From an uncultured Spirochaetaceae bacterium (GTDB lineage: Bacteria; Spirochaetota; Spirochaetia; Treponematales; Treponemataceae), in contig CADBRC010000150.1 of assembly GCA_902796985.1 (NCBI GenBank), forward strand, positions 1 to 10,762: a stretch of 10,762 bases of DNA. The letters are read 5' to 3'. Position 1 is the stretch's first letter. Each line of letters starts with the position of its first letter. Shown here piece by piece: positions 1,689-10,762 of the stretch. Below the pieces are notes generated by a model. The model had not been told where the DNA came from. It made no database searches and saw only the letters and a program-made list of their open reading frames with translations. A program made the position numbers and the translations under genes.

Positions 1689-3272
1689 ATGCTTTTCAAT
1701 TCCGTAGCCTTCTGGCTTTTCTTTCCGCTTGTATGCCTGGGGTATGCACTGTGCTCCTCGCTGATCAGGCGGAATTCCGTGACCCGTCTCTTCCTGCTGG
1801 CAGTCAGCCTCTTCTTTTATGCATGCTGGAATCCGGCGTATCTTTCGCTCATATTGATTTCGGTGTGCATAACCTATCTGTCAGGTCTGGGGATGGAACG
1901 CTGGCCAGGCAGGAAGAAGGTTGTGCTCGTAATCTCCCTGCTGAGCAACCTCGCGATTCTTTTCTTCTTCAAGTACTACAACTGGTTTGCCCTTTCTGCC
2001 AATGCCGTCGCAGGGCTTCTGCCGGGGGGCTTCCGGCCGTTCACCCTTACGTCTTTTGCTCTCCCTGTGGGAATCTCTTTCTATACGTTTCAGGCGCTGG
2101 GATATTCGATTGACGTGTATCAGGAAAAACTTCGGGCGGAACGGAACTTCATTACCTACGCGCTCTTCGTTACTTTTTTCCCTCAGCTTGTCGCGGGGCC
2201 GATTGAGCGGACGGAGAACCTTCTGCCCCAGTTCAAGTGCGATTACGGCTTTGACTACGGTCGTGTCACGGACGGGCTCAAGCTGGCTGCATGGGGGATG
2301 TTCATGAAGGTCATCATTGCGGACAACCTTGCTCCCTACGTCAACGGCATCTACGGCAACGTAAGCGGTGCGACCAGCTGTTCCATTGCGCTTGCGACAT
2401 TGTTTTTTGCCGTGCAGGTCTATGCGGACTTCGCGGGATACTCAAACATTGCGATTGGCTGTGCGGAGGTACTTGGCTTCCGCCTGATGAAGAACTTTGA
2501 CCATCCCTATTTCTCTTCATCGGTTCCTGAGTTCTGGAGGCGCTGGCATATAAGTCTGGGGGCGTGGTTCCGGGATTACCTCTATTACCCTGTGGGATTC
2601 GCTTCCTGGAACGAAAAGCTCTGTTCGGTATTCTGCGGTAAGAACAGACGGAGAATTTCCAAGATGATGGGATGCGTTGCGTTCGCCTGTGTCTGGCTTT
2701 CGACGGGCCTCTGGCACGGAGCAGCATGGCACTTCGTTGCATGGGGTGCAGTATACGGGGTATATGTCATAACATCCGTGCTGACAAAGAAGCGCAGGGC
2801 TGCCATCCGGGTCAAACTGGGACTTGAGAAAGACGGACAGGTCGTGAAAGGCTGGCATTATGTCCAGATACTGATTACGTTTTTCCTCGTCAACATCGGG
2901 TATGTTTTTTTCCGCGCAGACAGTATGGCGGATGCGGGGAGGGCTCTTGCAAAGCTTTTCTTCTTGCCCGCCGAGCTTGCGGGCGGCATTGCGTCCGTAG
3001 GTGAGCTCGGGCTGGCCGGCACTGTCCGCGAACTCTTCATCCTGCACGAGGGGGTGAGCGGCTTTGGCTTTAAGCTCGCTCTCAGGGCCCTGCTCCTCTG
3101 TGCCCTGCTTTTTGCAGCATCGTTCATTTCCCGCAAAGAGGACGGACGCAAAGTCCTTGCCCGCTTGCCGGCCGCTGTCCGATGGCTCTGCTATTATGCC
3201 GTTGTTTTTGTCATCGCTCTCTCGCTCTTCATGACGCATGAGGACGTGCAGTTCATCTATTTCCAGTTCTAG
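1689..3272 (+). CDS. MBOAT-family membrane O-acyltransferase (AlgI/DltB-like)
   Basis: This 527-residue polytopic inner-membrane protein has roughly 11-13 hydrophobic segments from residue 2 to 516. Family landmarks appear in order: LPVGISFYTFQALGYSIDVY (125-144), FFPQLVAGPIER (163-174), QVYADFAGYSNIAIG (243-257), the FWRRWHISLGAWFRDYLY block (282-299, His287), and the catalytic-His motif GLWHGAAW (His343). It ends in FIYFQF, a common MBOAT C-terminus. Members take an acyl group (acetyl or D-alanyl) from a cytoplasmic donor and pass it across the membrane to a glycan or polymer through an extracytoplasmic partner. That partner is probably the SGNH gene starting 20 bases downstream. ATG 1689 follows AGGG at 1680-1683, which overlaps the previous stop codon, so expression is probably coupled to the aminopeptidase. 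No dltA/dltC or alginate genes are nearby, so donor and acceptor are unknown. Fold and general activity are secure; the substrate is not. Confidence 0.92.
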   Translation: MLFNSVAFWLFFPLVCLGYALCSSLIRRNSVTRLFLLAVSLFFYACWNPAYLSLILISVCITYLSGLGMERWPGRKKVVLVISLLSNLAILFFFKYYNWFALSANAVAGLLPGGFRPFTLTSFALPVGISFYTFQALGYSIDVYQEKLRAERNFITYALFVTFFPQLVAGPIERTENLLPQFKCDYGFDYGRVTDGLKLAAWGMFMKVIIADNLAPYVNGIYGNVSGATSCSIALATLFFAVQVYADFAGYSNIAIGCAEVLGFRLMKNFDHPYFSSSVPEFWRRWHISLGAWFRDYLYYPVGFASWNEKLCSVFCGKNRRRISKMMGCVAFACVWLSTGLWHGAAWHFVAWGAVYGVYVITSVLTKKRRAAIRVKLGLEKDGQVVKGWHYVQILITFFLVNIGYVFFRADSMADAGRALAKLFFLPAELAGGIASVGELGLAGTVRELFILHEGVSGFGFKLALRALLLCALLFAASFISRKEDGRKVLARLPAAVRWLCYYAVVFVIALSLFMTHEDVQFIYFQF

Positions 3273-3274
3273 GC

Positions 3275-3282
3275 AGGGGAGG
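3275..3282 (+). promoter_or_regulatory. Strong ribosome-binding site for the SGNH gene
   Basis: AGGGGAGG lies directly after the MBOAT stop codon and ends 10 bases before ATG 3293. It is the clearest Shine-Dalgarno sequence of the plus-strand operon and supports that start. It contrasts with the first gene of the operon, which has none. Confidence 0.8.
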
Positions 3283-3292
3283 CAGTTTATCC

Positions 3293-4303
3293 ATGAAAAG
3301 ATTTTTCATCAAACTTGCGGCATTGTTCGTTCCGCTTGCCCTTGTCTTTGTCCTTCCCCCGCTCCTCGTTGATCCCTTCAACGTCTTCCACCGCAAGGCC
3401 GTGAGGCGGAACGGAGTGGAACCGAACGAGAACTTCATCAAAACCGCCTACGTGCTAGACAATCCCGGAAAATTCGACAGCTTCATCTTCGGATCCTCCC
3501 GGGTCGGTGCTTTGCACGGGGAGAATATTCGCGGCTACCGTGCCTACAACATGACCTACTCTTTCGGGATACCGCAGGAGCACTTGGACAACATTAAGAG
3601 TTTCCTTAAGGCCGGAATCAAAATTAAGATGGTGCTGATAAACATAGATGAGGTATGCTGTGCGATTGACGGGAAAGATCATTTTTCTGATCCCATGCAC
3701 CGGCCGTATCCGTCTGACGGAAACTTCCTGTCCTTTTATTCGATGTATATGAAGCCTGAGATTGTCCTGCAGTCCCTGCCAATCATCATGAAGAATACTC
3801 AGAACGATGAGAAGGTCTGGAGGCGGAACTTCTATGAAACCGGCTGGTGGATTGATTATGACATGGATACCGGGTTCAAGTTTGAGAAGCCGTCTGATGC
3901 TGCAGAAGGCTTGCAGTATTACTTTTATCCTGCTGCCCTTGAAGCGATGGAAGAGATTGCTGCCCTTTGTGCGGCAAACGGCATTGAGCTGCTTGTCTTT
4001 TCCAGCCCCATGTTCAGCTATCAGTTCCGGCTTTCTGCGAGCGCGGGCTACCTGGACTTTTTGGAACAGCTCGCCTCTGTCACGCCCTACTACAATTTCT
4101 CCTGCCTGAACGCGATAACGGAGGACGACTCCAACTATCTGGACCCGAGCCATTACAAGGCCCGGATCGGCGACATGATTCTGAACCGCATTTTCTGCGA
4201 GGACAAGGCCGAGCACAAAGCTGATGTGTTCGGCGAGTACGTCACGCAGGACAATGTGGGGCGGGTGATGGACGCGCTGAGGGAGCAGCTGGGGCGGCCA
4301 TAG
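3293..4303 (+). CDS. Membrane-anchored SGNH/DltD-like protein, partner of the MBOAT acyltransferase
   Basis: The protein has 336 residues. Residues 1-25 (MKRFF followed by a long hydrophobic stretch) form an N-terminal membrane anchor that places the rest in the periplasm. There is no lipobox or clear cleavage site. SGNH-type catalytic blocks are visible: FGSSRVGAL (Ser68/69, nucleophile block) and YLDPSHYKARIGDMIL (Asp284 and His287, the C-terminal DxxH dyad). Asn86 in AYNMTYS may serve as the SGNH Asn. This layout resembles DltD and AlgJ/AlgX-type proteins, which accept or transfer the acyl group exported by an MBOAT partner. That the gene lies directly downstream of such an MBOAT gene supports this role. 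The product is probably an O-acyl (perhaps O-acetyl) modification of an envelope polysaccharide or glycolipid. The acceptor cannot be read from sequence. A pure esterase removing acyl groups is the main alternative. Confidence 0.75.
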   Translation: MKRFFIKLAALFVPLALVFVLPPLLVDPFNVFHRKAVRRNGVEPNENFIKTAYVLDNPGKFDSFIFGSSRVGALHGENIRGYRAYNMTYSFGIPQEHLDNIKSFLKAGIKIKMVLINIDEVCCAIDGKDHFSDPMHRPYPSDGNFLSFYSMYMKPEIVLQSLPIIMKNTQNDEKVWRRNFYETGWWIDYDMDTGFKFEKPSDAAEGLQYYFYPAALEAMEEIAALCAANGIELLVFSSPMFSYQFRLSASAGYLDFLEQLASVTPYYNFSCLNAITEDDSNYLDPSHYKARIGDMILNRIFCEDKAEHKADVFGEYVTQDNVGRVMDALREQLGRP

Positions 4304-4314
4304 GGCCGGGCCTA
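4301..4314 (+). other. Near-palindrome holding both convergent stop codons
   Basis: TAGGGCCGGGCCTA is palindromic except for the central-flanking G-G pair (4305/4310). Its left end is the TAG stop of the SGNH gene, and its right end is the reverse-strand TAG stop of dihydroorotase. Only 8 bases separate the two genes. No loop or U-tract is present, so it is not a standard terminator, and neither gene has another candidate in the gap. Confidence 0.4.
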
Positions 4315-5649
4315 CAGGCTGAATACCTGCTTTCCGCCGTGGAATGTTGCAGTGACTTTCCCGGTGAGCTCTTTTCCTTCCCAGGGACTGAACTTTCCTC
4401 TGCTCTGGAAAGCTGCCCCGTGTACTGTCCAGACCCTTTCTGCATCCACGACAACAAGGTCTGCCCTGTAGCCCTCTTTGATCAGCCCCCTGTCGGCGAG
4501 CGCCAGCAGCCGGGCGGGGGCTGCGGACATTCTTGCTGAGAGCGTCTGCATGCTCATGCCGCTGTCCAGTACGAGGTTCGTGAAGCAGACTGCGAGGGCT
4601 GTCTCCAGCCCGGAGAAGCCGGGACTGCCGTTCCGTTTGTCCTGTTCGGTGTGGGGGGCATGATCGGTCGCGACAGCATCTGCCTCTCCGTTTATCAGTG
4701 CTTCAATCAGTGCCTGCCTGTCCTTTTCGGCACGGAGGGGCGGGTTTACGATGTTGAAGATGTCCGGCTGTGTTTCTCCGGTAAGCCCTATGTGGTGGGG
4801 CGTGACTTCCAGGCTCAGTTCCTGCCCTGCCTTTTTTGCCCTGATCGCGGACTCCAGGCAATGCGCAGTGCTGACGTGGCAGAGGTGCAGGTGGCAGCCT
4901 GCTGTTGCGGCGAGCCGTATGTTCCTGTCGGTTGCGACGTCCTCGGCTAGTCGCAGCAGCTCGTCCGCCTTGGCGAGCAGCCGTGCGGCCTCTTCCCTGT
5001 CACCTGCGGCGAGCTTTTCCAGCGCGGCCTGTCTGAATGGGCGGGCGGCGGCGGCGAGGAAGGGATCCTCACAGTGGCAGGAGACGATGATGTTTTTCTT
5101 TGCCGCGATCTTCATCGCCTCAAGCATCACCGAGCTGTCCTGTACTTCATGCCCGTCCTCGGTAATCAGGGGAACTGACGCGCTGTCAAGTCCGTCCAGA
5201 TGGGAGATTGTCTTTCCGTCAAAGTCCCGCGTTATGCTGACCGACTGGAATAAATCCGCAAGCCCTATCTCGTGGCCCCGCCTGTCGTTTGCCAGCGCGG
5301 CTTCCTGTGTGGAGACGACAGGGCTGGTGTTTGGCATGAGGACAAGCGTTCCGAACCCTCCCGCCGCCGCCGCCCGCGATCCGCTCTCAAGGTCCTCCTT
5401 CTGCGTCAGGCCGGGGTCCCGGAAGTGCGCGTGCATGTCGATGAAGGCGGGCATGACGATCTGCCCGTGCGCGTCGAACAGGTCCAAGTCCGCGCTGCCT
5501 GCTCCGGTGGTAAGGGAGGCGGCCTCGTGATTGTCCATTACTTTCTCTATCGTTCCGCCGGAGATGAGCAGGGCCTGTTTTTCCTTGTCCATGCCCTCGT
5601 CAACCAGCCGGGCGTTGTATATCAGTGTCTTGCGTCCTGTGTTTTCCAT
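4312..5649 (-). CDS. pyrC: Dihydroorotase, class I (type with Asp instead of carboxylated Lys)
   Basis: This 445-residue cytosolic zinc amidohydrolase interconverts N-carbamoyl-aspartate and dihydroorotate, the third step of pyrimidine synthesis. Metal and active-site residues are all visible: DMHAHFRDPG (His73, His75), TEDGHEVQD (Asp165), CHCED (His192), CHVST (His258) and ATDHAPHT (Asp329). The NPPLR motif (302-306) is substrate-binding in this family. Spacing from His75 to Asp165 to His192 (90 and 27 residues) matches what I recall for the Bacillus/Aquifex class I enzymes. About 13 extra residues precede His258, in an Ala/Glu/Arg-rich helical stretch at 205-235. The start is supported by AGGAGT (5663-5658), 8 bases before the ATG and overlapping the previous gene's stop. 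It is the last gene of the minus-strand operon. No other pyrimidine gene is in the window. Hydantoinase or allantoinase is less likely given the FRDPG and NPPLR motifs. Confidence 0.92.
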   Translation of the reverse strand: MENTGRKTLIYNARLVDEGMDKEKQALLISGGTIEKVMDNHEAASLTTGAGSADLDLFDAHGQIVMPAFIDMHAHFRDPGLTQKEDLESGSRAAAAGGFGTLVLMPNTSPVVSTQEAALANDRRGHEIGLADLFQSVSITRDFDGKTISHLDGLDSASVPLITEDGHEVQDSSVMLEAMKIAAKKNIIVSCHCEDPFLAAAARPFRQAALEKLAAGDREEAARLLAKADELLRLAEDVATDRNIRLAATAGCHLHLCHVSTAHCLESAIRAKKAGQELSLEVTPHHIGLTGETQPDIFNIVNPPLRAEKDRQALIEALINGEADAVATDHAPHTEQDKRNGSPGFSGLETALAVCFTNLVLDSGMSMQTLSARMSAAPARLLALADRGLIKEGYRADLVVVDAERVWTVHGAAFQSRGKFSPWEGKELTGKVTATFHGGKQVFSL

Positions 5650-5655
5650 ACTGTT

Positions 5656-7293
5656 TTACTCCTGTACTGCCGTTGTTTTTTTCTCAATCGAGAAGAAGCT
5701 TTTTAGCACCCTGCCGGCCTTATCGTATTTGTAATCATACAGGTAGACTACATCCACCCCTGGCCGGCCAGTTTCGTAGACTATCATGTCGCCCTGCTCG
5801 TTGTATTCATAGCGGTCTTCCACTGTCTCAGTGCTTCCTGTTTCAGGATCTATTCTGACAGACAGATGGCGGATGTTGTTTCCGTTTTCATCATACTCAT
5901 ACCAATTCTCATCGTCGTTCAACCAGCGTTCGTGCAGCAGACGGCTTGCACCGTCGTAATCTTTCCACACCTCACGGCCGTCGTTATAGCGTGTATGTAT
6001 TTCGTTTCCGCCGTCATACTCGGACCAGTATTCGTAATCATAATCGTCATTCCCGATTGAATGAAAGTGGATGATGTTCCCTAAGCCGTCATATTCGGTA
6101 TATCGTGTAAACTGATTTGAGTTCTTGTAGCGCACGATGCTGCCTTCGTATGAAGTCCAGCTCTCAAAGTCTCCTGTCTCGTTTGTGCTTCGGTAATGGA
6201 TTTCCTTGCCTTCATCATTGTGCTCGCGCCACATTTCCCATCCGTCGTTGTCCCATCCGTGCGTAGCCAGTCCGCTTGCATCGTCATATTCATACCAGGT
6301 TTCCATCCCGTCGCTGTCGTATTCATGTGTCAGAAGACCGCTCTTGCTGTCATATTCGGACCACAGCTCATACTTTTCAATAAGATCATTGTAGTATACC
6401 TCCCGGTTTTCGGCATCGAATTTTTTTCTGTAGTCTTCCGGTTCTTCTTCATCGAAATTCTTGTGGTACACACAGTTGCCGTTCTTGTCATATTTGTTTA
6501 TCTCGTTTATGAACCAGGGGTGCAGCCTCATCTCGCCCGGAACTTTTCTGAACGTAATCCGACGCATATCCCCATTGTACCAAATGAGTGTCAAAATTGA
6601 AAAAGGAATGGCACACACAATCCACAACGTTGTGCTGACAACTTTTATTTTCTTGGAATAATTGGATTTGCACACAATGGCAACATGAAAAACCGTGCGG
6701 ATCAACAGGATGGCAAGGCCAATCAGCATTAGGGGTCTGCAAAAGAACATTCCCACGCCAAACAGAATTATGCTGGCAAATGTGAGAAGATTTTTGAGAA
6801 TTATGAAATGCAGGGCGGAAGAACTTTTTAAATCCGGCCTCGCAAGTTCCAGCTTTTCTTTGATCGCATCAAATCCTGTCAGATAAGATGAAATGGTCAG
6901 CCTCTGAAAGCCTTTGGAAACAATTTTCAGCTGTTTCCTGTCCCTTATGCCGGGGAGTGTGAGAATGCCTGTGATGTCCTTGAGAAGGATCTTGCTGCTG
7001 ATTAGCTTCTTGCCTGGAATTCGGTATTCTATGAATTCGTCCGTCAGCTCCAGCTCCGCTCCGTCATACTGCTTCATGTTTATTCTATAGCACAAGACCC
7101 CCATAAGAGCTGTAAGTGCAACGAAAAAGCCGAGAATATCGAATGGAAAGGGGCTGTCAGGGGTAAGCAAATAATTTACGGCAAAAGGAACAGCCAATAA
7201 TAGAACTGCTGCATACAGAACATACAGGGCAAAGAACAGGATGCTCCGTCTGATGTATTCTCCCTTCTGCGAAGGATCGTTTTTATAAACCAT
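5656..7293 (-). CDS. Membrane protein with PH-like domain and C-terminal YD-like repeat domain, function unknown
   Basis: The protein has 545 residues. I recognise the parts but not a named family. Two hydrophobic segments (about 17-43 and 51-69) are followed by a soluble stretch at about 73-155. That stretch resembles bacterial PH-like domains: LELTDEFIEYRIPGKKLI, a DITGI strand, then an FDAIKEKLEL end helix. Three more hydrophobic segments follow (about 160-184, 187-208, 217-239). From residue 266 to the end come about 12 units of 19-30 residues with the pattern W-x-E-Y-D-x-x-G-x-x-I-H, rich in Tyr, Trp, Asp and Asn. Topology is uncertain. Positive charges after TM2 and TM4 place the PH-like part inside, and five segments would put the repeats outside, but Arg/Lys after TM5 argue against this. 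The start ATG follows AGGA (7307-7304) at 10 bases. The stop lies 6 bases before dihydroorotase. The DNA is AT-richer than both neighbours, which suggests a different origin. The repeats may bind carbohydrate or protein; this is a guess. Confidence 0.75.
   Translation of the reverse strand: MVYKNDPSQKGEYIRRSILFFALYVLYAAVLLLAVPFAVNYLLTPDSPFPFDILGFFVALTALMGVLCYRINMKQYDGAELELTDEFIEYRIPGKKLISSKILLKDITGILTLPGIRDRKQLKIVSKGFQRLTISSYLTGFDAIKEKLELARPDLKSSSALHFIILKNLLTFASIILFGVGMFFCRPLMLIGLAILLIRTVFHVAIVCKSNYSKKIKVVSTTLWIVCAIPFSILTLIWYNGDMRRITFRKVPGEMRLHPWFINEINKYDKNGNCVYHKNFDEEEPEDYRKKFDAENREVYYNDLIEKYELWSEYDSKSGLLTHEYDSDGMETWYEYDDASGLATHGWDNDGWEMWREHNDEGKEIHYRSTNETGDFESWTSYEGSIVRYKNSNQFTRYTEYDGLGNIIHFHSIGNDDYDYEYWSEYDGGNEIHTRYNDGREVWKDYDGASRLLHERWLNDDENWYEYDENGNNIRHLSVRIDPETGSTETVEDRYEYNEQGDMIVYETGRPGVDVVYLYDYKYDKAGRVLKSFFSIEKKTTAVQE
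5658..5663 (-). promoter_or_regulatory. Ribosome-binding site of dihydroorotase overlapping the upstream stop
   Basis: AGGAGT reads on the minus strand from 5663 to 5658, 8 bases before the dihydroorotase ATG at 5649. Its last base is the first base of the TAA stop codon (5658-5656) of the repeat protein, so translation of the two genes is probably linked. It supports the chosen dihydroorotase start. Confidence 0.75.
5704..6498 (-). repeat. Tandem YD-like protein repeats (about 12 degenerate units)
   Basis: Units begin near residues 266, 291, 312, 334, 356, 380, 399, 424, 444, 465, 495 and 521 of the membrane protein. The common core is an aromatic residue, x, E/K/D, Y, D, then a small turn (often G-N or D-G), a hydrophobic pair and His/Tyr, then an acidic loop ending in W or Y. 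Units diverge at DNA level, but some stretches are nearly identical. For example, 6013-6027 and 6349-6363 (both coding W-S-E-Y-D on the minus strand) differ at one base in 15. The pattern resembles RHS/YD repeats in spacing and in Y-D-G-N content, but lacks the canonical wording and any RHS core. Confidence 0.75.
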
Positions 7294-7332: not shown

Positions 7333-8190
7333 TTACGCGTCCGCTATCTTTTGGAATTTCACTCCGCCGGCGGTCAGGTATGCAAGCTCCGTGTATCCGG
7401 CCTGCCGTGCGGTCTCAAGGGCCTGATCGTACGCGAAGTCCAAATTGCTGCTCTGGTGCGCGTCGGAGTTTATCGTGACGGCTACATTCCGCTTGTTCAG
7501 GAGGGAGAGGAAAGCCGGGGAGGGGTAGGGGCTGTCCAAGAATCCCCGCGCCATTCCGCCCGTGTTTATCTCTACGATGACTCCTGCAGCCGCAATCGCA
7601 TCCGCCGTTTTCTCCAGCTCCGCCTTGTACCAGTCTTCGTCCTCGCTGAACAGCGGCTGTGCGCCTATGGAGTTCTGCTTGCGGACAAGATCGGCGTGCC
7701 CCAGTATGGTGAAGGTACTTTCCTTGAGCATCTGCCGCTCGCTTTCAAAGTAAGCCGTGACCGCCCGCCGTATGTTCCCGCCGAAGTATTTCCCGATTTT
7801 CTCCCGGGTCTCCTCAAGCGGGCCGTCCGCCTCAAAGTTGCCGCCGTCGCCGATAACGTAATGAACTGAGCCTATGATGAAGTCCGGCGAGAACTGGGCG
7901 TATTCTTTCATGTCGGGCTTGCAGAGTCCCGGTATGTAGTCCGCCTCAAACCCCCTCAATATCTCAAGCTTTCCCCGGTAGGCTTCCTTGAGCCTGTCGG
8001 TCTCGTTGACGTAAGCCTCATATCCTCCGGGGGTTATGTGGATGTGCCAGTCGTCGCAGAAGGGGTACATCGCGTGGGAGCTGAAACCGAGGATTTGGAA
8101 TCCCTTTTGGGCTGCAGCTTCCGCCATCGCTTCCGCGCTTTCTTTTCCGTCGCAGAACTGCGAGTGGGTATGGTAGTTCGTCTTTATCAT
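7333..8190 (-). CDS. PHP-family phosphoesterase, histidinol-phosphatase-like
   Basis: This 285-residue cytosolic metal-dependent phosphoesterase belongs to the PHP superfamily, closest in appearance to HisK-type histidinol phosphatases, which remove phosphate from L-histidinol phosphate in histidine synthesis. Metal-ligand motifs are seen in order: NYHTHSQFCDG (His7, His9), GFSSHA (His39), GFEADYIPG (Glu82), IGSVHYV (His110), LGHADLVRK (His165) and INSDAHQSSNL (Asp243, His245). EINTGG (207-212) is also typical. Length matches the family. Its ATG overlaps the kinase stop as ATGA (8190-8187) and has no good ribosome-binding site, so translation probably depends on ribosomes finishing the kinase gene. 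No other his genes are in the window, so a different phosphoester substrate is possible. A PHP domain of a DNA polymerase is excluded by length. Confidence 0.88.
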   Translation of the reverse strand: MIKTNYHTHSQFCDGKESAEAMAEAAAQKGFQILGFSSHAMYPFCDDWHIHITPGGYEAYVNETDRLKEAYRGKLEILRGFEADYIPGLCKPDMKEYAQFSPDFIIGSVHYVIGDGGNFEADGPLEETREKIGKYFGGNIRRAVTAYFESERQMLKESTFTILGHADLVRKQNSIGAQPLFSEDEDWYKAELEKTADAIAAAGVIVEINTGGMARGFLDSPYPSPAFLSLLNKRNVAVTINSDAHQSSNLDFAYDQALETARQAGYTELAYLTAGGVKFQKIADA

Positions 8191-10139
8191 AGCGTGCTTT
8201 TCCAGTTCTTTATGATGTTCTTGAGCTTGAGGTAGTCTAGCGCGAATGCCGTCCTGCGGTCATCGAAGGTCTTGGTGTCCTTCGCCATTGCAGCCCGCTC
8301 CATCTCCTTTGCCGTATCCCGCAGCTTGTGCGCACTGACAGACGCGCTGCTTCCTTTGAGCGTGTGCGCGTCGAACCTGAGCTGGCTGAAGTTCAGTTCA
8401 GGCTCGGCAAGTTCCTTCTTTATCTTCTCCAGAAGCTTCTGCGTCTGCTCTTCATATTCTTCTATTATCGAAAGGGCGAGCTGGGGGTCGCCTCCTGCCG
8501 TGTTCATGAAGTCCGCAATGTCCCACATCTCGGAGGCAGTGTTGTTCATCTCTGCGAGGTTGACGATTGTCTTGGCCTCGGGAATCAGCAGGACGGTATT
8601 CCATTTTTCCAGCATCTTCTTGACGGCATCGCGTTTGTACGGCTTTATGAGGATGTCATTTATGCCCATCTTGGTATACTCGCGGATGTCGTCGGGGTCG
8701 TCGTTCGCGGTGCAGGCGATGATGATTCCCTTGTAGCCTCCGCTGCGTATCTCTTTGGTCGCGTCTATGCCGTTTTTAATCGGCATGAAGATATCCATGA
8801 AGATGATGTCTATCTGCGGGTTCCTGGCAATCCTGTCCACGGCCTGCTGCCCGTTCTCGGCGAGGGAGACCGTCGCACCGTACTTCTCCAAGAAGGTGTT
8901 GAGCAGCTTGCGGTTCACCGGATGGTCTTCGGCGATGAGAATGGAAAGCCCCTTCGCTATGCCTGCTTCACTTGCGCGGGCAGCCTTCTTCCGCACGCTC
9001 CGCTCTATCTCGTCCGCCGTGTACTCGGTACGGCTGAATATGGCGAGCAGCCGGTCCCTCTTGATGGGCTTATAGATGTAGCCGTCAAAGAGGTCCAGCA
9101 TCTTCATCCTCGCATCCTTTCCCATCTGGCCTTCCGCAACGGTCAGGTAGAGGCGGAGGGGAGTGATGGCAGTGGACTTGCGTATCGTGCTGGCGACGCT
9201 CCATCCGTCTATGCGGGGCATGAGCATGTTGATGAAGGCGATGTCGAAAGGTTTCTTGTCCTCGGAACCATTGGTCAGCTTGTTCAGCACTTCCTGCCCG
9301 TTCTCCGCCGTTGCGATGTTTTTTATGCCGAGGGATATCAGCTTCTTGGCGAACGACTTGGCGGCGAGTCGGTTGGGGTCGGCTATGAGGATCCGTGCGT
9401 CCGTGGGGATATAGTCCGGCACGGGCTTCTCCAGATCGAAGTCTGCCTTCACGAGCGGAAGTGAGAACCAGAAGTTGGACCCTCCGGAGGGGTTACTCCG
9501 TATTCCGATTTTACCGCCCATTACCTCGACGAGGTTCTTGCTTATTGTGAGTCCCAGGCCGGTACCCCCATACTTGCGGGTCATGCTTGCATCCACCTGG
9601 AAGAAGTCGTTGAAAATAAGCTTCTGGTTTTTGGCGGCCACGCCTATTCCGCTGTCTATGACCTGGAAAAAGAGGTTGTTGTTCTCCACCGAAAGCTTGA
9701 CGTAGATGTAGCCCTTTGCGGTGAATTTGACCGCATTCTTGACCAGGTTCAGCAGTATCTGCTGCACGCGGGTGGGATCACCCATGATGTTCCGCTGCAT
9801 GGAATAGTCTATGTCGGTGATGATTTCTACGCCCTTGCTGAATGCGTCCATGCTGACCAAATCGACAACGTGTTCGGTCAGCTCAGAGATGTCGAAGGGA
9901 ATGCTCTCAAGCTTGAATTCCTTGGAGCGGATTTTAGTGAAGTCCAGCACGTCGTTTGCAAGCTGCAGAAGGACGTTCGCACTGAACTCAATCTGCCTGA
10001 CGTACTCGGTTTGCTCCTTGTCCAGTGCGGTATCGTCCAGCAGCTCCGTCGTACTGATGATTGTCTGGATGGGCGTCCTGATTTCATGCAGGGTACTGGC
10101 CAGAAATCGGCTCGCCGTCTCCAGTGAGTTGTCGCCCAT
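8187..10139 (-). CDS. Soluble hybrid histidine kinase: HisKA, HATPase, degenerate receiver, receiver, HPt
   Basis: The protein has 650 residues, no membrane segment and no N-terminal sensor; the HisKA helix begins almost at residue 1. Domains: HisKA 5-75 (STLHEIRTP, phospho-acceptor His18); HATPase 115-230 (N-box NLVKNAVKFT with Asn135, DSGIGV, GGTGLGL); receiver-like 247-370, in which the phosphorylation site is Asn304 (FINMLMP) rather than Asp, though YKP Lys357 is kept; intact receiver 398-512 (Glu404/Asp405, Asp449, Thr477, Lys499); HPt about 540-650 (FDAHTLKGSS, His592). This suggests a phosphorelay His18 to Asp449 to His592, then to a separate receiver. The receiver protein encoded just upstream is the obvious partner. 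The ATG sits two codons after that protein's amber stop and in the same frame. The only SD-like AGGA is one base from the ATG, so translation depends on re-initiation or the two are one split protein. The signal and final output are unknown. Confidence 0.9.
   Translation of the reverse strand: MGDNSLETASRFLASTLHEIRTPIQTIISTTELLDDTALDKEQTEYVRQIEFSANVLLQLANDVLDFTKIRSKEFKLESIPFDISELTEHVVDLVSMDAFSKGVEIITDIDYSMQRNIMGDPTRVQQILLNLVKNAVKFTAKGYIYVKLSVENNNLFFQVIDSGIGVAAKNQKLIFNDFFQVDASMTRKYGGTGLGLTISKNLVEVMGGKIGIRSNPSGGSNFWFSLPLVKADFDLEKPVPDYIPTDARILIADPNRLAAKSFAKKLISLGIKNIATAENGQEVLNKLTNGSEDKKPFDIAFINMLMPRIDGWSVASTIRKSTAITPLRLYLTVAEGQMGKDARMKMLDLFDGYIYKPIKRDRLLAIFSRTEYTADEIERSVRKKAARASEAGIAKGLSILIAEDHPVNRKLLNTFLEKYGATVSLAENGQQAVDRIARNPQIDIIFMDIFMPIKNGIDATKEIRSGGYKGIIIACTANDDPDDIREYTKMGINDILIKPYKRDAVKKMLEKWNTVLLIPEAKTIVNLAEMNNTASEMWDIADFMNTAGGDPQLALSIIEEYEEQTQKLLEKIKKELAEPELNFSQLRFDAHTLKGSSASVSAHKLRDTAKEMERAAMAKDTKTFDDRRTAFALDYLKLKNIIKNWKSTL
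9226..9232 (-). other. Degenerate phosphorylation site in the first receiver of the hybrid kinase
   Basis: The codon at 9230-9228 reads AAC (Asn304), where an active receiver has Asp before the hydrophobic-Met-Pro turn (here N-M-L-M-P). The acidic cluster is also reduced (IADPNR keeps one Asp). The conserved Lys357-Pro is kept, so the fold is probably intact but not phosphorylatable. Such pseudo-receivers usually act as docking or regulatory modules. Confidence 0.8.
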
Positions 10140-10142
10140 TTC

Positions 10143-10145
10143 CTA
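10143..10145 (-). other. In-frame amber codon separating receiver protein and kinase
   Basis: On the minus strand the order is receiver C-terminus (ISGANTGF), TAG, GAA, then ATG of the kinase, all in one frame. Without the TAG the frame would give one long protein: N-terminal region, receiver, HisKA, HATPase, pseudo-receiver, receiver, HPt. A receiver placed directly before HisKA is a common fused architecture. Confidence 0.7.
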
Positions 10146-10762
10146 AAAACCGGTGTTCGCGCCGCTTATCGCCGACAGGGCCGTCTGTATGATGACCTCG
10201 GGCTTCTGCGGCTTGAGGATGAAGTTTGCAGCCCCCAGAGATATTGCGTCTGTAACGTACTGCTTTTCGGTCGCCTGGGAGTAGACCAGTACGGGAGAAG
10301 CATACTTCTGCCGCTGCAGGTTCCTGAGTACGTCCAGACCGTTCATGTTGGGGATGAAGATGTCCAGAATAACGACATCGAACTCCTTGCCTTTCAGATC
10401 ATTCAGGAAGGTTACGCCGTCGCTGTATATCGTAATCTTGGCCTTTACCCTGTCAAAGGTACCGACGAGGATTTTCTGGGAGACCGGGTCGTCGTCGATT
10501 ATGGCAACCCGCATTATGTCACCCTCGTCCCAGCTGCTCTTGGCTGTCCCGCCGTAGTCGCTGGAGAAGCGCATGTCTATGTCGTTTTCGGGCAGCTCCT
10601 TGTTGGGAATAAGGATTCGGTGCAGGAGGGGATCCTTGCTTTCCGAGATGGCGAAAATCTCCAGCAGGGGGTTCAGCACGGTGTTTATGTCATCCGTAAT
10701 CTCTATGCCCTTGTATTCCTCATGACCGTCTACGAAGTCTTTGAAGAAGGAGTCGTTCGTCA
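10143..10762 (-). CDS. Response-regulator receiver protein with unrecognised N-terminal region (partial at window edge)
   Basis: The frame is open to the window end, so the true start may lie beyond it. GTG at 10679 or ATG at 10514 are internal options. The last 123 residues are a complete receiver: MRVAIIDDDPVSQKIL (acidic pocket), VVILDIFIPNMNG (phospho-acceptor Asp in LDIFIP), VYSQA (Ser switch), FILKPQKP (conserved Lys). About 80 residues before it (from FFKDFVDGHEEY to SSWDEGDI) have normal codon use and no stop. I do not recognise them; they could end another domain. ATG 10514 is preceded by GAGGG about 7 bases away and starts exactly at the receiver, so a receiver-only product is possible. 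No output domain follows. The TAG stop at 10145-10143 is in frame with the kinase ATG, with one GAA codon between. Likely role: phosphorelay partner of the kinase, or its detached N-terminal half. Confidence 0.8.
   Translation of the reverse strand, partial: TNDSFFKDFVDGHEEYKGIEITDDINTVLNPLLEIFAISESKDPLLHRILIPNKELPENDIDMRFSSDYGGTAKSSWDEGDIMRVAIIDDDPVSQKILVGTFDRVKAKITIYSDGVTFLNDLKGKEFDVVILDIFIPNMNGLDVLRNLQRQKYASPVLVYSQATEKQYVTDAISLGAANFILKPQKPEVIIQTALSAISGANTGF

Follow-up and report, generated by a model that had tools for sequence, protein, structure and literature searches.

Locus and domain architecture

The window, i.e. the whole stretch of DNA analysed here (10,762 nucleotides, positions 1 to 10,762 of contig CADBRC010000150.1, assembly GCA_902796985.1), derives from an uncultured Spirochaetaceae bacterium. 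On its minus strand lies a gene for a composite protein of 545 amino acids, in which membrane helices and a pleckstrin homology (PH)-like domain precede a C-terminal array of YD repeats. The genome (2.28 Mb, 426 contigs, 75.7% complete) yielded this gene as the single match of its kind. A preliminary description made from the sequence had proposed the open reading frame and its composite architecture, and both were confirmed. Computation gave five membrane helices, a PH-like fold and an RHS-type beta array; the membrane-PH part (N-module) and the array also occur apart. The features of the gene, all on the minus strand, are as follows.

5656..7293, minus: whole gene, composite protein of 545 residues; frame open from ATG to stop, under purifying selection
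7279..7290, minus: residues 2-5, predicted PH strand beta-1, ahead of the first membrane hairpin (AlphaFold2 model, structural matches, conservation)
7168..7275, minus: residues 7-42, membrane helix 1 (hydropathy, AlphaFold2)
7060..7143, minus: residues 51-78, membrane helix 2 (hydropathy, AlphaFold2)
6838..7059, minus: residues 79-152, rest of the PH fold, made up of six strands and, at its C-terminus, helix 141-151
6745..6813, minus: residues 161-183, membrane helix 3 (AlphaFold2, hydropathy)
6667..6738, minus: residues 186-209, membrane helix 4 (AlphaFold2, hydropathy)
6574..6654, minus: residues 214-240, membrane helix 5 (AlphaFold2, hydropathy)
6508..6573, minus: residues 241-262, conserved basic linker (alignment, charge count, predicted local distance difference test (pLDDT) < 50)
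5659..6507, minus: residues 263-545, YD-repeat beta array, approximately 12 units with a period of 22, acidic in net charge; last ~35 residues of low model confidence (TIGR01643, RHS fold, periodicity, charge, pLDDT)

In comparison with the nearest relative, the ratio of nonsynonymous to synonymous differences per site (pN/pS) was approximately 0.36 (0.219/0.601); a second pair gave 0.225/0.547, and synonymous sites were near saturation in these pairs. The frame is therefore a conserved gene, subject to purifying selection. Both the PH domain and the array were conserved, and the membrane helices drifted.

The membrane-PH module

The multi-pass membrane part proposed in the preliminary description could be specified as five helices arranged 2 + 3, which appeared as long helices in each of two AlphaFold models. 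Hydropathy placed hydrophobic stretches at residues 14-45, 48-72, 159-210 and 216-241. A PH-like domain had been expected at residues 75-155. The fold is indeed there, at residues 79-152, but the better model (residues 1-256, 16 sequences, mean pLDDT 81.3) also uses residues 2-5, which form a strand; the first 10 residues had a pLDDT of 91. Together these segments gave the seven strands and the C-terminal helix of the PH superfold. Model residue 1 was the start of the structural match in 50/50 cases among the matches listed. Among 7 members, mean pairwise identity was 64% over residues 2-6 and 24% over the hairpin next to them. The conserved first residues are MxYKN-like and make up PH strand beta-1 in the better model, and position 3 was Y or F in 20/20 N-module rows, some of which are near-copies. 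Six of the 20 rows (L002, L005, L030, L040, L046 and L066) were begun at the conserved motif rather than at the frame's first start codon, which biases position 1. Both the model and the conservation suggest that residues 2-5 are PH strand beta-1 and that the hairpin of helices 1 and 2 interrupts the PH fold between strands 1 and 2, an arrangement that would hold the PH domain tight on the membrane face.

To YcxB proteins, collected by the Pfam model alone, the N-module aligned with an hhalign value of 92.1% (E 6.4e-7, 64 columns, columns 80-148). Three reversed controls gave 1.3-8.8% and the array profile 0.0%. Locus L070 was excluded from the YcxB set because its discovery relied on the N-module profile; its own match to Pfam YcxB was under the cut-off (E 0.0025), and with it in the set the hhalign value was 96.6%. 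The YcxB model itself (PF14317) was not listed at E up to 10 for the N-module of the window protein or for nine repeat-less members, and gave no match in the window's own genome. Likewise, bPH_2 (PF03703), which we take to be the Pfam family of YdbS/YdbT, was not listed for these proteins and matched 0/59 genomes, including the window's own. Since profile similarity was found but the Pfam YcxB model was not reached, the relationship indicated by the profiles is distant kinship, not membership. YcxB-like membrane PH proteins (PF14317) have in common with the composite a short segment ahead of the helices and two helices followed by a PH domain; the composite differs in its three further helices and the YD array.

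In the passages of Xu et al. 2010 (PMC2817789) dealing with such domains, DUF1696, DUF304, DUF1200 and DUF2244 are grouped as PHb domains, two N-terminal membrane helices are noted, and membrane PHb families are proposed, from alignments, to lack strand beta-1. In contrast to the domains described there, the composite's beta-1 appears to precede the hairpin. The model thus suggests that beta-1 is present ahead of the hairpin, at least in the N-module family. A PH domain split in this way offers a testable alternative on the fate of beta-1 in membrane PHb domains: the strand may have been overlooked, standing before the membrane helices. If this is true, the boundaries of YcxB-type and related domains may need redrawing.

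Identification of the N-module as a phage holin was rejected. PF07332 matched residues 16-74 at E 0.0081, its 16.6 bits falling short of the cut-off of 28.4, and covered the hydrophobic hairpin only; against the whole protein its E was 0.097. Other weak Pfam matches of N-module members were all under their cut-offs. No PADLOC model for a defence system matched the window protein, L015 or L030.

The YD-repeat array

Ninety-three 16-residue windows of the protein matched the protein itself at offsets of 15-119, compared with a mean of 1.6 and a maximum of 12 in 300 shuffles, so the repeat is not due to chance. The best offset was 22; the other eleven of the twelve best were 44, 66, 88, 110, 112, 21, 20, 30, 45, 109 and 90. 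At a period of 22, the 279 residues of the array correspond to approximately 12 units, the number counted originally. The beta structure expected of the array was recovered by AlphaFold, with pLDDT block means of 82-93 over residues 301-480. The model takes an RHS-type beta-sheet fold, and RHS cores topped the fold searches. By sequence, no solved relative was significant (best E 0.48).

The remark that the units resemble YD repeats proved an understatement. With 23.6 bits, the window protein exceeds the cut-off of NCBIfam TIGR01643 (15.8), as do six of nine composites including it; P0004, P0005 and L003 fail. The Pfam RHS_repeat model (PF05593) was not reached by the window protein (11.6 bits, cut-off 22). 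In the scan of composites with this model, from which L003 was left out, only those from horse, L015 and L019, passed (50.3 and 30.2 bits); P0004 and P0005 match neither YD model. The composite array thus has the repeat motif and beta-sheet fold in common with YD/RHS repeat proteins, but comprises only ~280 residues, has the membrane-PH module ahead of it, and yielded no RHS core, toxin or signal peptide. Exported Treponema YD-array proteins (e.g. L007, L010, L021, P0006 and P0009) have the same short repeats with the core W-x-E-Y-D-x-x-G-N, but start with a signal peptide or lipobox where the composite has a five-helix PH module. An array-only sister, L006, is 37% identical to the composite over 186 residues and is without an export signal.

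Distribution and origin of the composite

An N-module profile (A3) matched 16/274 family genomes. Reading of the frames showed composites in seven of these and repeat-less proteins of 182-269 amino acids in nine. All seven composite-bearing genomes belong to the window's genus, the others being Treponema metagenome-assembled genomes, including two from goat rumen and two from horse faeces. A spirochaete-wide family, as had been anticipated, was therefore not found for the composite, whereas arrays by themselves were widespread (87/392 phylum genomes, in some through RHS-like frames of ~2000 amino acids). With a wider profile (A5), 11/392 phylum genomes matched, ten in the family and one in another family of the class; among these, G060 was a false match inside a long enzyme frame and G190 was YcxB-like. 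The full-length profile matched 125/274 family genomes, mostly through the array. The scan that returned six other composites also returned a Lachnospiraceae locus, L053, which matches residues 465-536 only. In the protein collection there were five full-length entries, one of them a near-copy of the window's protein, and the full-length profile found no further composite among the best 7996 candidates scored. A search with the N-module alignment gave nothing at E up to 0.001 among the best 7995 word-sharing candidates, within length limits that excluded 545-residue composites.

The variation of N-terminal modules expected of the arrays was borne out: signal peptides, a lipobox, Fic/DOC and membrane-PH modules were seen. 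A simple rule applied to 25 array-only proteins, all from the best-scoring loci, assigned a signal peptide to 17, a lipobox to one and neither to seven. At L009 (1084-2736, minus strand), a protein of 550 amino acids joins Fic/DOC (PF02661, E 6.8e-16) to RHS repeats (PF05593, E 2.6e-33, eight stretches); it has no export signal by the same rule and matches the PADLOC candidate models PDC-S23. L010, L017 and L021 each carry a pair of adjoining signal-peptide YD-array genes, the second start in L010 being called late. Downstream of repeat-less modules, a lipoprotein or signal-peptide gene lay within 68 bp in 5/13 cases, four of the five from one clade. At L041-L044, the repeat-less membrane-PH gene is followed within 9-68 bp by a small lipoprotein gene (~128 amino acids), and L041 has three genes of this type in series.

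The N-module tree was built from 20 rows, leaving out the YcxB-like L070, L072 (the second match in G535) and L071, a match inside a long enzyme frame that by eye is carbamoyl-phosphate synthase. Two label changes are required to explain the composites on this tree; of 200 bootstrap trees, 8% show a single origin, and L030 forms a long branch. When the two horse composites are aligned with the five others, the linker and the beginning of the array (KYDK-x-GN) correspond, which favours, but does not prove, one origin of the PH-YD fusion.

The idea that no known family could be named thus holds for the combination but not for the parts, which are YD/RHS repeats and a membrane-PH half near YcxB-type PH proteins. 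The parts are of known kinds; the combination and the split-PH reading are the new points. Among the matches listed in a search of the open-licence literature, as far as their text was accessible, there was no paper on a PH-YD membrane protein.

Sidedness and proposed role

The N-terminus and the loop at residues 206-219 were net positive in 10/10 aligned rows, and the loop at 44-52 had at most one lysine or arginine in 10/10. This pattern places the N-terminus and the PH domain in the cytoplasm, and the three helices that follow the PH domain would then put the array outside. Insertion of the hairpin likewise leaves residues 2-5 and the PH domain on the same side, with three helices remaining ahead of the array. 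We therefore consider display of the YD array in the periplasm probable.

Our preferred explanation, offered tentatively, is that the composite is an inner-membrane-anchored YD-repeat protein that couples a periplasmic YD binding sheet to a cytoplasmic PH domain and acts as a tether or sensor, not a toxin. Residues 2-5 would supply PH beta-1, the inserted hairpin of helices 1 and 2 would keep the domain tight on the membrane face in the cytoplasm, and three more helices would lead to an acidic, aromatic-rich YD sheet in the periplasm. A step further, this sheet might serve constitutively as the surface that binds a partner in the periplasm (glycan, peptidoglycan or protein), and the PH domain, judged by its fold, might act on the cytoplasmic side by oligomerising or by recruiting a partner. 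A bolder version, which we regard as rather doubtful, extends this to membrane PHb domains in general. They would be split, with beta-1 at the extreme N-terminus, the hairpin between beta-1 and beta-2, and a barrel that cannot close until the hairpin is in the membrane; in the composite, with the locked PH domain in the cytoplasm coupled through three more helices to the YD sheet in the periplasm, the result would be a YD-repeat receptor or tether that spans the bacterial membrane, loosely teneurin-like and without a toxin. Teneurins and teneurin-like proteins are single-pass, have a much larger closed shell and other domains, and are not known to contain a PH domain.

Two observations weigh against a periplasmic array. 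The linker right after helix 5 was basic in 10/10 aligned rows (3 to 6 lysines or arginines), and several array-only relatives are without an export signal, one of them with Fic/DOC. They would fit an array in the cytoplasm, either with one of helices 3-5 failing to span the membrane or with the entire protein inverted, and with the YD sheet as an intracellular scaffold beside the PH domain. We consider this unlikely, given the five helices in two models, the basic N-terminus with a first loop that is not basic, the export of most array-only relatives scored, and the side assignment that follows from hairpin insertion.

By analogy, the main functional rival to a tether or sensor is a transport-linked role, in which the N-module would act as an oligomer or transport component of PHb type, the role proposed for the YdbS/YdbT-like DdE/DdF, and the array would serve outside as an accessory plug or guide. 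The accessible text of PMC8657885 reports that the membrane PHb proteins DdE/DdF are required for export of enterocin DD14, that of Xu et al. (PMC2817789) suggests PHb rings as transporters or pores, and the profile kinship of the N-module to YcxB is consistent with such a role. We judge it improbable, since the composites were found to have no conserved transporter or peptide gene as a neighbour and bPH_2 had no match in the 59 genomes searched.

In bacteria, YD repeats are mostly treated as the shells of polymorphic toxins, and the accessible parts of PMC8049484 speak of those of treponemes as toxins. Here a small conserved array stands on a membrane protein, with no toxin found. In agreement with the preliminary description, no signal peptide was found in the composite, and PAAR, RHS-core (NF041261) and toxin families had no match in the window protein at E up to 1. 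Weak, partial matches to the RHS_core model were obtained for P0003, L015 and L019; they scored 11.9-25.2 bits, under the cut-off of 2000, and the best of them (25.2 bits) had an E of 3.3e-6. A variable C-terminal toxin was not indicated: mean identity was 51% in the C-terminal half of the array and 52% in the first half (five members, the two horse ones left out), which is evidence against a polymorphic tip. An RHS polymorphic toxin that is degenerate or truncated and has lost its tip, e.g. a type VI secretion system (T6SS) effector of the kind with N-terminal membrane domains described in the accessible text of PMC7773334, would account for the RHS fold and the three weak core matches, but is highly improbable given the lack of toxin families and of a hypervariable C-terminal half, the absence of a generally conserved downstream gene among the loci compared, and the 0 complete secretion systems tabulated for ten treponemes in the part of PMC8049484 that surveys them, the window's own genome not having been searched for T6SS.

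Genomic context

The composite gene lies in a minus-strand run whose order is response regulator, hybrid histidine kinase, PHP protein, composite gene and dihydroorotase-like amidohydrolase.

10143-10760, minus: response regulator, open at the window edge
8187-10139, minus: hybrid histidine kinase, two receiver domains and Hpt
7333..8190, minus: upstream neighbour, PHP-domain protein, 39 bp ahead of the composite gene
4312..5649, minus: downstream neighbour, dihydroorotase-like amidohydrolase, 6 bp past the composite gene

The histidine kinase gene starts 3 bp after the response regulator gene (8187-10760, minus). The histidine kinase and response regulator genes possibly form one operon with the composite gene.

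Neighbours of the composites were called mechanically as long frames. No generally conserved neighbour was found across the composite loci compared. The dihydroorotase gene was downstream in the window and in G120 only, i.e. in the same order in 1/6 other composite loci, and the PHP-domain gene had no counterpart adjoining the six other composites in the stretches compared. G240 and G189 have in common a GH120-insertion/beta-helix gene upstream and a DUF436 gene downstream; the composite of G119 has a DUF4153 gene upstream. The two horse genomes had no neighbour in common with the other composite loci or with each other.

The guanine plus cytosine (GC) content of the gene was 0.453 compared with 0.558 in its flanks in the window. 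All seven composite genes (0.27 to 0.54) were poorer in GC than their flanks, by 5-11 points. Because the deficit is common to all seven, it follows amino-acid composition, and recent horizontal transfer was rejected.

Immediately upstream of the G120 composite lies a bacterial alpha-2-macroglobulin-like gene (L057:3-3497, plus strand). In the window, positions 1689-4303 (plus strand) encode an MBOAT acyltransferase and then a DUF1574-like protein (E 0.047, under the cut-off), an arrangement that presumably resembles a polysaccharide O-acetylation pair.
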